Source: Myxococcota bacterium
Lineage (GTDB): Bacteria > Myxococcota_A > UBA9160 > UBA4427
Direction: 5' to 3'
Assembly: GCA_029243605.1 (NCBI GenBank)
Contig: JAQWRT010000033.1
Span: forward strand, 1 to 64,000
Length of the DNA stretch: 64,000 nt
Shown: positions 51,150 through 57,463 of the stretch, piece after piece
Numbering within the stretch: position 1 is the first letter of the stretch
How the letters are laid out: each line of letters begins with the position of its first letter
Made by a program: the position numbers and the translations under genes
The notes under the pieces: generated by a model
What the model was told of the DNA's origin: nothing
The model's database searches: none
Seen by the model: the letters and a program-made list of their open reading frames with translations, nothing else

Positions 51150-51490
51150 GCTCCGGGAATGGATCCTAGATACTTGATTTAAAAAGGCTTTTTTCTTAGC
51201 GAGAGCGCTGAAATCCCGACGAACCGCCCTCGCCGGCACCGCGAATCCCCGTGGCCCGGGTTCACCCCACCCGGGCACCACTTCCCCCACTCGGCCCCAC
51301 TCGGGCTCTCCGGAGACTCACAGCGGGCCCTAGGCTGCGAACCCACTCGCTTTTCCCGATTCTGGCGTCCTGGGCGAGCCAAAGGAGAAAGTAAGGGGAA
51401 AGTGCGTCCGGAAATGGCGCCGTTTTGCGTAAAACCCCGGTAATTCGAGGGTAGAGCGCAAATAAATACACGCCCTATCCGTGAATTTGC
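51150..51490. other. intergenic region upstream of the dcw cluster
   Basis: About 340 bases between the HDAC-type gene and the mraZ promoter. AAAAAGGCTTTTTT at ~51180 is a short A/T palindrome that may help end the upstream transcript. The rest is unremarkable; ORFs across it have no family motifs. Confidence 0.4.
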
Positions 51491-51519
51491 TTCACAAGCC
51501 AGGAGCGGTGGGGTATAAC
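51491..51519 (+). promoter_or_regulatory. mraZ/dcw operon promoter
   Basis: TTCACA, a 17-bp spacer and TATAAC, close to consensus at -10. It lies ~185 bp before the mraZ start and directly before the GTGGG repeats, so transcription would start inside or next to the MraZ operator. Confidence 0.65.
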
Positions 51520-51528
51520 AAAGGCGTT

Positions 51529-51553
51529 GTGGGATGAAGTGGGACCAAGTGGG
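51529..51553 (+). promoter_or_regulatory. MraZ-binding direct repeats
   Basis: Three GTGGG units at 51529, 51539 and 51549, an exact 10-bp period (GTGGGATGAA GTGGGACCAA GTGGG). A fourth GTGGG at 51508 is 21 bp upstream. MraZ binds TGGGN direct repeats with this helical phasing before its own gene in other bacteria. Here the repeats lie just past the -10 box, fitting autorepression. Confidence 0.85.
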
Positions 51554-51703
51554 TCAAGCAACCAGCCAAAAAGACCGCGCCGCGGTAGCAAAGGCAAAAT
51601 GGGTGGCAGACGCATTCTCCGGCTCAGAAAGATCCCGAAAGGCAACGAACAAGTCAACTGAAGTGCTTTCCAAACCGGCCAGTCAACACGGAGCTCCCAG
51701 GCA

Positions 51704-52156
51704 ATGTTTCGAGGCCGGTTCACACACACAATGGATACTAAGGGACGCGTGAGCATCCCGTCAGGTTTTAGAGTGGAAATCCAGCGCCGTAGCCAAAACG
51801 ACCCGATTCTCGCGAGCCAAGGTTCACACCTGGCGCTCTTCCCCGCCGACGAGTGGGAGAAGAAAGAAGAGGTCCTCCTGGGACTGTCAGAATTCGACAG
51901 CGACGCCCTGGACCTCCAGCGAATCATGGTCGGAGAGGCCAGCGACAGCGCCCTGGATGCCCAGGGAAGAATTCTCGTTCCGACCTTGATGCGCAATGAG
52001 GCAGAGCTCGGCAACAAAGTTTTACTCGTCGGCGTTCTCAACCGCATCGAACTCTGGAATCCGGAGCGATACGAAGAGAAGAAGCGGATGACCGCCCTAC
52101 GCTTCGAAGAGATCCAGAAGAACGTGGATCCCAATCGTCAGCAGCCGGGCGACTGA
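51704..52156 (+). CDS. mraZ: transcriptional regulator MraZ
   Basis: A 150-residue AbrB-like double-fold protein. The two DxKGR-type units are TMDTKGRVSIPSGFR and ALDAQGRILVPTLMR, each followed by strands (LALFPADEWEKKEE; RIELWNPERYEEKKR). It forms a ring that binds the upstream GTGGG repeats and represses the dcw cluster. It is the first gene of the cluster, followed by an unusually long ~190-nt spacer before rsmH. Confidence 0.95.
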   Translation: MFRGRFTHTMDTKGRVSIPSGFRVEIQRRSQNDPILASQGSHLALFPADEWEKKEEVLLGLSEFDSDALDLQRIMVGEASDSALDAQGRILVPTLMRNEAELGNKVLLVGVLNRIELWNPERYEEKKRMTALRFEEIQKNVDPNRQQPGD

Positions 52157-52201
52157 TTTTTTTTGGGGGGGAGTTGGGGCGTGGGCCCCAGCAGAGAGGT
52201 T

Positions 52202-52342
52202 GGGGTGTCCTCGGAACACTAATTACGACGGCAGCGTGCTTACTGGGGGGTACACGTTGCAGTCAAGGCGTTCCGAGGCACCCCATTCTCTTCTCCGCTT
52301 CCCCGAGAAGCCCCGTAACCGGGCGATTTCGGGGGACACCCC
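52202..52342 (+). promoter_or_regulatory. structured mraZ-rsmH leader RNA candidate
   Basis: GGGGTGTCCTCGGAAC (52202-52217) pairs with GTTCCGAGGCACCCC (52270-52284) to give 15 bp with one bulge. Inside it, GCAGCGTG pairs with CACGTTGC (one G-U). The first nine bases, GGGGTGTCC, are also the exact complement of GGACACCCC at 52334-52342, only 5 nt before the GTG start of rsmH. The two pairings exclude each other. A CTTCTC-GAGAAG hairpin lies between. This has the form of a translational switch, but the ligand or signal is unknown. Confidence 0.5.
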
Positions 52343-52347
52343 ACCCA

Positions 52348-53307
52348 GTGACCGCTGAATTTCACCACGTACCCGTCCTGCTCAACGAATGTGTAGAACA
52401 CCTTCACCTTGAGCCGGGTGCGATCATCCTTGACGGAACCCTGGGCGGGGGCGGACACGCGGAAACGATCCTCGAGCGAACCGCACCCGACGGCGTCTTG
52501 ATCGGCCTCGATCTCGACCAGGATGCTCTGGATGCCAGCGCTGCTCGGCTCTCCCGCTTCGGCGATCGAGTACGCCTCGTCCGATCTTCATTTCGCCACC
52601 TCGACGAGGCCCTCGATGAACTCGGCATCGAACGCGTCGACGGCGTCTTGCTCGATCTCGGCGTCTCCTCGTACCAACTCGATGCCGCCAAGCGCGGCTT
52701 TCGCTTCGCCGACGCAGAGACCGAAGAAACCCCGCTGGACATGCGAATGGACGCCTCTCAAGGCTCCAGCGCCGCCGAGCTCCTCGCACGAGCTTCGGCC
52801 GAGGAGCTCCAGGGATGGTTTCAACGCTACGGCGAGTTGCCGGGCTCCAAGCGACTCGCCGCAGCGATCACGAGCAGCCGCAGAGAGCGGCCGCTGGAGA
52901 CTACTGCCGACCTCCTACGCGTCATCCACGAAGCCGGGGTGGGACGCGGGCGCCGCCACAACCCGGCCACCCTGGTCTTCCAGGCTCTGCGGATCGCGGT
53001 GAACGACGAGCTCGGCGCCCTTGAAGACGGCCTCGATGCCGCCGCCGCCCGCCTACGACCCGACGGACGGCTCGTGGTCATCAGCTACCACTCCCTCGAA
53101 GATCGAATCGTCAAGCAGCGCTTCCGAGCCGCGGCCCGGGGGTGCATCTGCCCTCCGCGACAGCCGATCTGCAATTGCGGCGTGGAGCCGTCCCTGGAGA
53201 TTCTCACCCGTCGCCCGCTGAGGCCCGAGGAAGACGAAACCGGCCACAACCCCCGCGCCCGCTCGGCGCGCCTGCGCGTGGCCCGCCGGCTTCAGGAGGT
53301 CGCGTGA
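52348..53307 (+). CDS. rsmH: 16S rRNA (cytosine-1402-N4)-methyltransferase RsmH
   Basis: 319 residues from GTG 52348 (TAEFHHVPVLLNECVEHL, the family start); the tracked ORF from 52174 runs through the structured leader. SAM motifs: ILDGTLGGGGHAETILE, GLDLDQDALDAS, GVLLDLGVSSYQLDAAKRGFRF, HNPATLVFQALRIAVNDEL and VVISYHSLEDRIVKQRF. The C-terminal Cys cluster (CICPPRQPICNCG) is typical of the family. No good ribosome site precedes the GTG, consistent with a structure-controlled start. It overlaps ftsL by one base (TGATG). Confidence 0.95.
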   Translation: MTAEFHHVPVLLNECVEHLHLEPGAIILDGTLGGGGHAETILERTAPDGVLIGLDLDQDALDASAARLSRFGDRVRLVRSSFRHLDEALDELGIERVDGVLLDLGVSSYQLDAAKRGFRFADAETEETPLDMRMDASQGSSAAELLARASAEELQGWFQRYGELPGSKRLAAAITSSRRERPLETTADLLRVIHEAGVGRGRRHNPATLVFQALRIAVNDELGALEDGLDAAAARLRPDGRLVVISYHSLEDRIVKQRFRAAARGCICPPRQPICNCGVEPSLEILTRRPLRPEEDETGHNPRARSARLRVARRLQEVA

Positions 53308-53816
53308 TGGCAAAGCGACCCTCCGCGAAGCCCCGCAACCGATCCGGCGCGCGCTCGGGTCGCTCGGCCACCCTGGGGCGCCTGGGTTTTCGGACACGGA
53401 ACGTCAAGCGCTCGGCGAGTCGGAAAAAAAGAAGTCGGCGCGGCGGCCAAGCCACCGCACGTCTCGGCGCCCTGGCACCGTGGAACTGGCGCATCAGTTT
53501 TCCTTCCCAGCGCATGATTCCCGCCCTGCTCGCGGCGGTGCTCGTCGCCCTGGGCATGGCCGCTCTCCGAATCGACCTGATCCGTGCGCGCTACGAAACC
53601 GGCCAGGGATACAGCGAGGAGCGGAGACTGAACCAAGAGATCGCCGGTCTCACCGCCCGCATGCGTGAACTCCGCGATCCCGTCGACCTCGGCCAGGTCG
53701 CCCGGGAAAGGGGTTTCGTTCCGCCCGAGCTGCTCATCGATCTGACGACGCCCGAGGAGAGGGATCCCCAGGTGGAATTTGTCAGCTACGCCCAGGGCGA
53801 GGGCGTCGTTCAATGA
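53307..53816 (+). CDS. ftsL: cell division protein FtsL
   Basis: 169 residues. A long, strongly basic cytoplasmic N-terminus of ~65 residues (Arg/Lys/Ser-rich) precedes one TM helix (MIPALLAAVLVALGMAALRI) and a periplasmic leucine-zipper-like coil (LIRARYETGQGYSEERRLNQEIAGLTARMRELRDP), then ARERGFVPPELL. Position, topology and coil fit FtsL, which joins FtsB/FtsQ and activates FtsW-FtsI. The basic tail is much longer than in E. coli FtsL. It overlaps ftsI by ATGA. Confidence 0.85.
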   Translation: MAKRPSAKPRNRSGARSGRSATLGRLGFRTRNVKRSASRKKRSRRGGQATARLGALAPWNWRISFPSQRMIPALLAAVLVALGMAALRIDLIRARYETGQGYSEERRLNQEIAGLTARMRELRDPVDLGQVARERGFVPPELLIDLTTPEERDPQVEFVSYAQGEGVVQ

Positions 53817-55915
53817 GATCCCAAGCCCTGCGATCGAGCGTGATCCGGGTGCGGACCCTCCAGATCCTTCTCGTTCTCGGTTTCCTGGCCCTGGCCATTC
53901 GGGCGGGGCAGTTGACCGTGGGCGAGACCCGGGGCGGCGCTCAGGGAGAGCGCCAGGTCCAGCGCCAACTCGAGCTGCCCGGCGCTCGCGGGCTGATTCT
54001 CGATCGCGACCACCGGGAACTCGCCATCAGCGTGGAGGCGCCGTCGATTTACGTCTCGCCCCAGAATTTCGTCGACTCCAAAGCCACCATCGCGGCCCTC
54101 GCCCGGATTCTCGAGCGACCCGAGTCCTCCCTGGTCGAACGCATCGGCGAACGAAAGAAATTCGTCTACCTCGCTCGCTGGGTCAGCCCAGACCAAGCGG
54201 AGGCCATCGCCAAGCTCGACCTGCCCGGCGTGGGAATCGAAAAAGAACCCAGGCGCACCTACCCCGCCGGCCCCATGGCGGCCTCCCTGCTCGGGTTCGT
54301 CGACATCGATGGCACCGGCAGGCGGGGCGTCGAACAGATGATGGACTCGTGGCTCAAGGGCAAATCCCGCCGGATCGACGTGAAGCGAGACGCCCGGGGA
54401 CGAGTTCTGGCCAACCCGAGCTTCGACTCGCGGGAAATCGCCGGCGGCGACATCGTGCTCGCTCTGGACGCAGCACTTCAAGCCCAGGCGGAAGCTGCCC
54501 TGGCCGAGAGCATGGAGTCGAGCGGCGCCCGCCGCGGTCTGGTGATCGTCGTGGAACCCTCGACCGGAGATATTCTCACCTTAGCCGAAGCCCCCGGCTT
54601 CGACCCCAACGCCTTCAGAAAACTCAACTATGCGGACACGCGTAGCCGTGCCTTCACCGACGCCGTCGAACCGGGCTCGACCTTCAAATCCTTCTTGGTC
54701 GCCGCGGCCCTGGATGAGGGCATTCTGGACGGGGACACCATCGTCGATACCGGGGACGGAAAACTCCAATTGCCCGGCAAGATCATCGAGGATAAGCGCA
54801 AGCTCGGAGCGACGGATGCGGCGGGGGTCCTGAGACAGTCGAGCAATGTGGGCGCGGCGCTGATCGCCCAGGAACTCGGCAGCGAACTCTACCGGGAAGC
54901 GCTCGAGCGTTTCGGGTTTGGGACAACGACCAAAAGTGGCTTCCCCTCGGAGTCAGCGGGGCTGATGCGAAATTGGCGTAAGTGGCAACCCATCGATCAG
55001 GCCAACATCGCCTTCGGCCAGGGTGTCAACGTCACCGCCATTCAACTCGTGATGGCTGCAGCCGCCCTGGCCAACCAGGGCGAGCGGATGCGGCCGCGCA
55101 TTATTCTGGCCCGAAGAGCTGGACTCGGCAATTGGGAAAGCATCGCGCCCATGAGCGCCGGGCGGACCGTCGAGCCCTCCACCGCCACCGACGTGCTCAA
55201 AATGATGGAAAGCGTCGTGAGCGCGACCGGGACGGGACGACTCGCGGCTCTGGCCGGAGTTCAGGTCGCCGGCAAGACCGGAACCGCCCAATTGCTCGTC
55301 GACGGCGCCTACTCTCGCCGCCGCCATACGGCCTGGTTTCTCGGCCTCGCCCCGGCTGAGAAGCCCAAGGTCGCCATCGTGGTCGCCCTGGAGGAGCCCG
55401 GACGCATGGGCGGAGGCACCGTCGCAGCCCCCCTCTTCGCCAAGGTCGCCACGGCCCAGCTCGCGCATTATGGAATTTTGACCGAGCCGGAACCGATCGC
55501 CGCCGCGCCGCGACCAAAACAACCCATGGAGACCGTCCCCGTGCACCTCGCCTCACCCATCCCCTCCGAAACGAAGCGGCAGATCCGATCCATCGCTGCC
55601 CTTGATGCGGCATCACCGGCCCGCTCCGTGCCGGTGGTGGCCAGGGGGCCGAAGCCCCGGGCGATCCCCGCCCAGGCCGAACTCCTGCGTGCCGAGGCCC
55701 AACCCGACACCGGACGCGCGGTGTTGATTCCCAATTTTCAGGGGGAGGGCCTGGCTCAGGCCCTTGATCTGGCCTCGGAGGAGTCCCTGCGGCTCCAGTA
55801 CAGCGGCCCGGCCGGCGGGCGAATCGTCAGCCAGAACCCTCCCCCGGGAACCATCGTCGCCGGCAAACGCAGAACCGTAGTCGTGCGCTTCTCCGCGCTC
55901 CAAGGGGAGGGCTAG
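53813..55915 (+). CDS. ftsI: septal peptidoglycan transpeptidase FtsI (PBP3) with PASTA domain
   Basis: A 700-residue class B penicillin-binding protein. N-terminal TM helix (TLQILLVLGFLALAIRAG), pedestal domain with GARGLILDRDHRELAISV and RRTYPAGPMAASLLGFVDIDGTG. Transpeptidase motifs: SxxK in EPGSTFKSF (Ser ~289), SxN in RQSSNVGAAL, KTGT in AGKTGTAQLL. The C-terminal ~65 residues are one PASTA domain (VLIPNFQGEGLAQALDL, GRIVSQNPPPGTIV). It cross-links septal wall with FtsW. It abuts murE directly (TAG then ATG). Confidence 0.95.
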   Translation: MRSQALRSSVIRVRTLQILLVLGFLALAIRAGQLTVGETRGGAQGERQVQRQLELPGARGLILDRDHRELAISVEAPSIYVSPQNFVDSKATIAALARILERPESSLVERIGERKKFVYLARWVSPDQAEAIAKLDLPGVGIEKEPRRTYPAGPMAASLLGFVDIDGTGRRGVEQMMDSWLKGKSRRIDVKRDARGRVLANPSFDSREIAGGDIVLALDAALQAQAEAALAESMESSGARRGLVIVVEPSTGDILTLAEAPGFDPNAFRKLNYADTRSRAFTDAVEPGSTFKSFLVAAALDEGILDGDTIVDTGDGKLQLPGKIIEDKRKLGATDAAGVLRQSSNVGAALIAQELGSELYREALERFGFGTTTKSGFPSESAGLMRNWRKWQPIDQANIAFGQGVNVTAIQLVMAAAALANQGERMRPRIILARRAGLGNWESIAPMSAGRTVEPSTATDVLKMMESVVSATGTGRLAALAGVQVAGKTGTAQLLVDGAYSRRRHTAWFLGLAPAEKPKVAIVVALEEPGRMGGGTVAAPLFAKVATAQLAHYGILTEPEPIAAAPRPKQPMETVPVHLASPIPSETKRQIRSIAALDAASPARSVPVVARGPKPRAIPAQAELLRAEAQPDTGRAVLIPNFQGEGLAQALDLASEESLRLQYSGPAGGRIVSQNPPPGTIVAGKRRTVVVRFSALQGEG

Positions 55916-57463
55916 ATGCGCCTTTCCGCCCTCATAGCCGCCCTCCCCGACGAGCTCGCGGCCACGGCCTGGCTGGGGGAAGAGAGTTCTCGAGACCCCC
56001 TGATTCGCGGCATCGCCTACGACTCGCGCCAGGTCTCGCCGGGAGATCTCTTCGTTGCCCTGGCGGGGTCGGTGAGCGATGGACACGCCTATATCCGCCG
56101 GGCCATGGAGCTCGGGGCGGCGGCGATTCTAATCGAGAGCATCCCCGAGCCTGGACTCGATGCGAACTGGCCCACCGTTGTGGTGCCCGATAGCCGAAGG
56201 GCACTCGCCCCCATCGCCGTCCGCTTCTTTGGTCAGCCCGCGGAAGAATTGCGACTGATCGGAATCACGGGAACCAACGGCAAGACGAGCACCGGCTACC
56301 TGGTTGAAGCCATCCTGCAACGAGCCGGGATCTTGCCCGGGCTCATCGGCACCGTGGAGATTCGCTACGCGAACGAACGGATTCCCGCGGTCAACACCAC
56401 CCCCGAAAGCCTCGACCTCCAACGCATCTTGCGGTCCATGTGCACCCGGAACATCGAGGCCGCGGTCATGGAGGTCTCCTCCCACGGGCTCGAATTGGGT
56501 CGGGTCCGGGGTTGCCAATTCGAAGTCGCCGCATTCACGAACCTCACCCAGGATCACCTGGACTTTCACCCCAACATGGCCGCGTACCTCGACTCCAAAG
56601 CCCGACTCTTCCGAGAGCATCTGGCCGAGGGCGGCCACGCCGTGATCAATGCCGACGACCCGGCTTCGGCCACGCTTCTCGAGGCGGCCCAGCGCGTGGG
56701 GGCCCGGGCCCTCCGCTGCAGTCGAGACCCCTCTTCGAAGGCCGAAATCAAACTCCTCGACTCGGAAATTCGTCTCTCGGGCACCCGCGCCCGTCTTGAG
56801 ATCGAAGGGGAGCCCCTGGATATCGACCTCCCCCTACTCGGAGATTTCAATCTCGAGAACCTGCTCGTGGCGTGCGGCATTGGCCATGCCCTGGCCATCG
56901 AACCCGCGCATATCGCCGCCGGCGTCGCCGCGTGTCCCCAGGTTCCCGGACGTATGGAGGTCGTCTCCAGCACAGATCCCGCCAGCCCCGTCGCCATCGT
57001 CGACTACGCCCACACACCCGACGCCATCGAAAAACTGCTCCAGGCCGTGCGCCCTCTCTGCGACGGGCGCCTGATCACGGTTTTCGGATGCGGCGGGGAC
57101 CGGGATCGAAGCAAGCGACCGCGTATGGCCGAAGCCGTGGCCCGGGGCAGCGATCTCGCGATCGCCACCAGCGACAACCCGCGCACCGAGGACCCCGGGC
57201 AGATCCTGCACGATGTCGAGCAGGGGCTGGGCTCCCTGGAAACCAGGCGCCCAGAGGATCTCGGCGACACTGGGCGAGGCTACGCAATTCTCGAGGACCG
57301 GCGTTCGGCGATCCAGCGAGCAATCGGAATCGCCGAGCCCCAGGACACAGTGGTCATCGCGGGTAAGGGCCACGAGGACTATCAGATTCTCGGACGCGAG
57401 AAATTCCCCTTCGACGACCGCGATGAGGCCCGCAAGGCGCTCGAGCAACGGGGCCCATCATGA
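55916..57463 (+). CDS. murE: UDP-MurNAc-tripeptide synthetase MurE (meso-DAP type)
   Basis: A 515-residue Mur ligase adding meso-diaminopimelate. The start directly follows the ftsI stop. N-terminal UDP-binding region with GIAYDSRQVSPGDLFVAL, ATP site ITGTNGKTSTGYL, AVMEVSSHGLELGRVRG with catalytic His, NLTQDHLDFHPNM, and DYAHTPDAIEKLL. The meso-DAP specificity motif DNPR is in TSDNPRTEDPGQI, so the wall is DAP-type. It overlaps murF by ATGA. Confidence 0.96.
   Translation: MRLSALIAALPDELAATAWLGEESSRDPLIRGIAYDSRQVSPGDLFVALAGSVSDGHAYIRRAMELGAAAILIESIPEPGLDANWPTVVVPDSRRALAPIAVRFFGQPAEELRLIGITGTNGKTSTGYLVEAILQRAGILPGLIGTVEIRYANERIPAVNTTPESLDLQRILRSMCTRNIEAAVMEVSSHGLELGRVRGCQFEVAAFTNLTQDHLDFHPNMAAYLDSKARLFREHLAEGGHAVINADDPASATLLEAAQRVGARALRCSRDPSSKAEIKLLDSEIRLSGTRARLEIEGEPLDIDLPLLGDFNLENLLVACGIGHALAIEPAHIAAGVAACPQVPGRMEVVSSTDPASPVAIVDYAHTPDAIEKLLQAVRPLCDGRLITVFGCGGDRDRSKRPRMAEAVARGSDLAIATSDNPRTEDPGQILHDVEQGLGSLETRRPEDLGDTGRGYAILEDRRSAIQRAIGIAEPQDTVVIAGKGHEDYQILGREKFPFDDRDEARKALEQRGPS

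Follow-up and report, generated by a model that had tools for sequence, protein, structure and literature searches.

The 191-nt spacer between mraZ and rsmH (52157-52347) in the window, by which we mean the whole 64,000-nt stretch of DNA that was analyzed, contains a structured RNA that we consider virtually certain to be real, order-wide in its distribution and previously undescribed. Comparison of the aligned relatives showed a conserved sense-strand fold, composed of a 5' G-tract, a hairpin (P1), a long interrupted hairpin (P2a/P2/P3) and a loop of six Gs (the G6 loop), which in the window's order occurs only at the mraZ-rsmH position. Our preferred reading, to which we assign a probability of roughly 0.5, is that this element represents a new family of cis-regulatory leaders that sets the expression of rsmH and the dcw genes relative to that of mraZ, probably via a factor that recognizes the hairpin with the G6 loop.

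The gene order of the dcw cluster is among the most conserved in bacteria, and the control of the ratios of its products is poorly understood. The window includes the start of such a cluster:

51704 to 52156, + strand: mraZ (Pfam MraZ, E 4.8e-25).
52348 to 53307, + strand: rsmH (mraW), with a GTG start that is consistent with the starts in relatives (Pfam Methyltransf_5, E 1.1e-104).
53307 to 53816: a short ORF at the ftsL position, with no Pfam match.
53813 to 55915: an ftsI-like transpeptidase gene.
55916 to 57463: a Mur ligase gene.

In E. coli MraZ represses dcw, its own cluster, and is antagonistic to MraW, according to Eraso et al. (2014) as cited in PMC8475190. Given this repression and antagonism, a separate dial for the second gene of the cluster makes sense.

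Between the upstream ORF and mraZ there are about 550 nt without an evident gene (51150-51703). Three TGGG repeats with a 10-bp spacing (TGGGATGAAGTGGGACCAAGTGGG) are situated there at 51531-51554, about 150 bp upstream of mraZ, and we take these to resemble MraZ boxes; by a raw count, made without a shuffle control, 42 of 72 relatives have TGGG-N6-TGGG in front of mraZ. At the other end of the gene the mraZ stop codon leads directly into a homopolymer pair, TTTTTTTTGGGGGGG (52154-52171), which near relatives keep at varying lengths and at which the polymerase could slip or terminate weakly. A single weak terminator-like match has its end at the U-tract that directly follows this stop codon.

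The element is about 130 nt long (a 132-nt core) and has the following parts:

52165 to 52296, + strand: the whole conserved structured RNA core, as in covariance models R1 and R2 (model match of 115-124 bits; 39 of 42 pairs covary in 71 sequences).
52165 to 52171, + strand: the 5' G-tract, mostly unpaired and kept order-wide (four columns 93-97% G).
52174 to 52180 with 52185 to 52191, + strand: the P1 hairpin (two-sided changes in 7 of 7 pairs; 96% of cells paired).
52194 to 52199 with 52287 to 52292, + strand: P2a, the outer extension of P2 (79-83% of cells paired; two-sided changes in 6 of 6 pairs).
52201 to 52207 with 52279 to 52285 and 52209 to 52217 with 52270 to 52278, + strand: P2, the main stem, with U52208 bulged (95-96% of cells paired; the inner nine pairs all covary order-wide).
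52227 to 52229 with 52262 to 52264 and 52231 to 52238 with 52253 to 52260, + strand: P3, the inner stem (two-sided changes in all pairs, order-wide).
52245 to 52250, + strand: the six Gs of the apical loop (98-100% G in 71 sequences; lost in one, L131).

This anatomy is shared by the spacers across the order, in which the G-tract and P1 are followed by GAGAGG and, typically, by UUGGGGUGUCC(U/C)CGG paired with CCGRGGCRCCCCA, a stem that encloses a second stem capped by UGGGGGG. Conservation among unpaired letters is confined to the four G-tract columns, the bulged U of P2 (96%) and the six loop Gs; the internal loop that separates P2 from P3 differs among members in both its length and its sequence. 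In L131 the G6 loop is replaced by UGGGAGC, and in L154 P2 is GGGCGCC/GGCGCCC and has no bulge. A 15-bp stem with an inner 8-bp stem had been proposed by the sequence-only reading, and both are found where it placed them (52202-52207 and 52209-52217 with 52270-52284, U52208 being bulged; 52231-52238 with 52253-52260). The size it gave the element was too small, as the true element also takes in the G-tract, P1 and the P2a extension.

The fold of the core is predicted to have a free energy of -76.3 kcal/mol, compared with -50.1 +/- 4.2 kcal/mol for dinucleotide shuffles (z = -6.3). To this can be added the covariation among relatives. When 26 family members were aligned with MAFFT on sequence alone, 90.1% of cells formed the pairs of the 42-pair structure versus 79.6% when shuffled and 40-52% with slid partners, and two-sided changes occur in 23 of the 42 pairs (129 such cells versus 41 in shuffles). 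RNAalifold, run unaided on alignment A1, recovers most of the same helices, but instead of P2a it chose a rival pairing of the 5' G-tract with the same CU-rich strand. Covariance model R1 detects the element in distant families too, and across the order (71 sequences) two-sided changes were found in 39 of 42 pairs, in 559 cells versus 156 when shuffled; this alignment was fitted to the covariance model and is thus biased towards it, but slid partners still collapse the signal. Across the pairs, G-U and U-G combinations (264) are far more numerous than A-C and C-A combinations (61), which argues that the functional molecule is the sense-strand RNA, read in the mraZ-rsmH direction. Covariation in relatives was the check that had been set for a structured leader between mraZ and rsmH, and it came out positive, leaving no doubt about the stems; together with the fold z-score it rules out a chance hairpin.

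Two further candidates were rejected. A coding extension of rsmH (a 377-aa ORF starting at 52174) is not tenable, since the spacer is not frame-preserving (its length modulo 3 is distributed 27/24/21) and in-frame stops are present in 50 of 72 relatives; the spacer is therefore not coding. An intramolecular G-quadruplex, when allowed, enters the predicted fold in only 6 of 72 leaders.

We found rsmH in 94 of 97 related genomes and compared the DNA upstream of it. Wherever both genes were readable in the window's order, the mraZ-rsmH spacer was 175-402 nt long. In a sister group of the same class (f12; L165-L168 and L171-L174), mraZ and rsmH overlap in all eight genomes in which both were readable, and the long, leader-bearing spacer is thus a mark of the window's order. 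Of 79 genomes of the order, 75 have a match to the order-wide model, R2, directly upstream of rsmH. Among the four genomes missed, two contain no more of rsmH than a 3' fragment, a third lacks any rsmH match, and the fourth (G039, L147) has a copy that is recognizable by eye, with an altered P2 (GGGGCCCCUGG/CCGGGGGCCCC) and the G6 loop present. There is one copy per genome, including the window's own, except in two bins with two copies, both of which have more than one rsmH match. A repeat element was rejected based on this single genomic copy, the weak minus-strand matches being the hairpin's own complement. Outside the order, the R2 search found the element in none of 11 sister-group genomes, in none of the rest of a 377-genome sample of the phylum (under strict filters) and in none of 25 genomes of other lineages.

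None of the 4227 families of Rfam 15 had a match in the window above its gathering score, and matches at E values up to 10 were at chance level only. Similarly, no description of an RNA between mraZ and rsmH was found in the open-licence literature. As only open-licence papers were covered, this second absence is weak evidence of novelty and the absence from Rfam 15 is the stronger. UpsM of Rhodobacter sphaeroides is comparable in being a structured, lineage-restricted leader of a dcw transcript that has been proposed as a possible riboswitch (PMC5089854), but it is situated upstream of mraZ and has a Rho-independent terminator at its end, whereas the element described here is between mraZ and rsmH and no such terminator was found. 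As in translational riboswitches and ribosomal-protein leaders, a conserved fold adjoins the ribosome site of a single gene or operon; unlike these, the element has no Rfam match and no conserved internal-loop pocket, and its proposed alternative fold is unconserved.

The rsmH gene had been thought to have no good ribosome site, but a Shine-Dalgarno-like GGGGGA is present at 52331-52336, 11 nt before the GTG. In the window it is predicted to be covered by a separate hairpin:

52299 to 52308 with 52327 to 52336, and inner 52310 to 52313 with 52321 to 52324, + strand: the P4 hairpin (predicted pairing probability 0.83-1.0).

Some near relatives are predicted to form P4-like hairpins and others have GGGAGG as the site, while no conservation of P4 was found order-wide. 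Unlike the core, the region of the ribosome site is variable across the order and its folding does not clearly exceed that of shuffles (median z -0.35), so a shared expression platform is unsupported at that level. In family f4 (L036, L037, L138, and L157) there is a conserved GGGCCUCGAGCGAGAUGCCGGGCCC-like hairpin just before rsmH. The ATG of this hairpin opens a 7-codon ORF in some f4 members, its stop overlapping the TTG start of rsmH (TTGA), and in others it shares the reading frame of rsmH or fits neither frame.

We think it likely that the element regulates rsmH and the dcw genes that follow it in cis. In so doing it would let rsmH and the downstream genes reach a level unlike that of mraZ on the same transcript. 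The small number of conserved unpaired letters (G6, the 5' G-tract, and the bulged U) and the variable internal loop point to a recognition hairpin rather than a ligand pocket, and we infer a protein or a partner RNA as the reader of the G6 hairpin in preference to a small-molecule pocket. Our best single guess, at about even odds, is a protein-type effector that acts on translation. For the window and some of its near relatives, the effect of binding on translation would go through the local hairpin over the Shine-Dalgarno-like site. More tentatively, and with less than an even chance of being correct, the order-wide RNA class may use the G6-loop hairpin to sense a metabolite or protein signal related to the cell wall or to division, and so gate the whole dcw cluster downstream of mraZ.

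The stem of about 30 nearly unbroken pairs, situated between two genes of one operon, is also what would be expected of a processing or stability element, which RNase III would cut or which would block exonucleases, giving mraZ and the rest of the transcript separate lifetimes. The dcw mRNA of E. coli is known to give rise to RNA fragments with stable ends (PMC6156199). However, such a role offers no explanation for the invariance of the six loop Gs, or for P1 and the conserved 5' G-tract, and we regard it as unlikely.

The sequence-only reading had interpreted the leader as a switch, driven by a small molecule or a protein, in which the 5' arm of P2 has two alternative partners, its P2 complement and a segment five bases before the GTG at 52348, the latter pairing masking the start of rsmH:

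52334 to 52342, + strand: GGACACCCC, the proposed alternative partner of 52202-52210 (GGGGTGTCC); an exact complement, with no compensatory changes.

The 9-bp complementarity is indeed exact, and the alternative duplex of the window is nearly as strong as P2 when the duplexes are considered alone (-28.6 versus -30.3 kcal/mol; z -2.8), with duplexes of comparable strength in the same genus, some near genera and several family members. Against this, the 5' arm is invariant in nine close leaders and all changes are on the 3' side, five of the nine breaking at least one pair of the 9-bp helix, so that there is no compensatory change in the alternative helix. When the 5' arm was paired with the 40 nt preceding rsmH in 65 leaders, the median z relative to shuffled tails was -0.26, and the 17% of leaders with z < -1.64 were mainly from the window's genus and near genera. 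Forcing the alternative helix in the whole leader costs 13.5 kcal/mol (13.1 for the ensemble), and the 3' arm of P2 is transcribed before its rival at 52334-52342. A point in favor of the switch is that the region before the start resembles the 3' arm of P2 in many members. Pairing of this region with the G6 loop or the 5' G-tract was no better than in shuffles. Based on these results arm exchange is not supported as a general mechanism and we consider it quite improbable, while a lineage-specific switch is possible in the window's genus and a few others, where the predicted pairing exceeds chance. What stands of the translational riboswitch layout is a phylogenetically supported leader fold; a conserved alternative helix masking the ribosome site does not (order-wide z about 0).

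Release of a trans-acting small RNA from the element, its G-rich loop pairing with C-rich targets, would fit the accessibility of the invariant G6 loop and the precedent of UpsM, a small RNA from the Rhodobacter dcw leader (PMC5089854). It is very unlikely in our estimation, as neither a promoter-like site (in 51400-52500) nor a terminator-like site (within the spacer, 52157-52347) of its own was found, and a role in trans would not need a fixed position before rsmH. Autoregulation by RsmH, through mimicry of its 16S rRNA target, is suggested by the rRNA methyltransferase encoded directly downstream, but when six leaders were compared with the 16S rRNA of a family member both similarity and complementarity were at shuffle level, leaving this a highly improbable explanation.

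RF01746, the mraW motif of Actinobacteria, has been described as a candidate structured RNA that accompanies mraW, i.e., rsmH (PMC2864571, PMC5640933). It was listed for Actinomycetales as a probable cis-regulatory RNA (PMC2864571), its function was still unknown in 2017 (PMC5640933) and in C. diphtheriae it is located upstream of the mraW transcription start (PMC5784534). That the element is a member of this family, whose gene neighborhood it shares in being directly upstream of rsmH across the order, can practically be dismissed, since the 107-position model (gathering threshold 50 bits) matched nothing in the window, not even the leader at E values up to 10, and was above its cut-off in 0 of 79 genomes of the order and in one named control genome. 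The absence of RF01746 from both the window and the order agrees with the earlier view that the leader is distinct from the mraW motif.

Returning to the cis-regulatory leader that we prefer, the invariant G6 loop, the compensable P2 arms and the Shine-Dalgarno hairpin make it tractable, and the covariance model is usable to find further members. An RNA that is fixed between the first two genes of the dcw cluster throughout an order, and is absent where these genes overlap in the sister group, points to a post-transcriptional layer of control.
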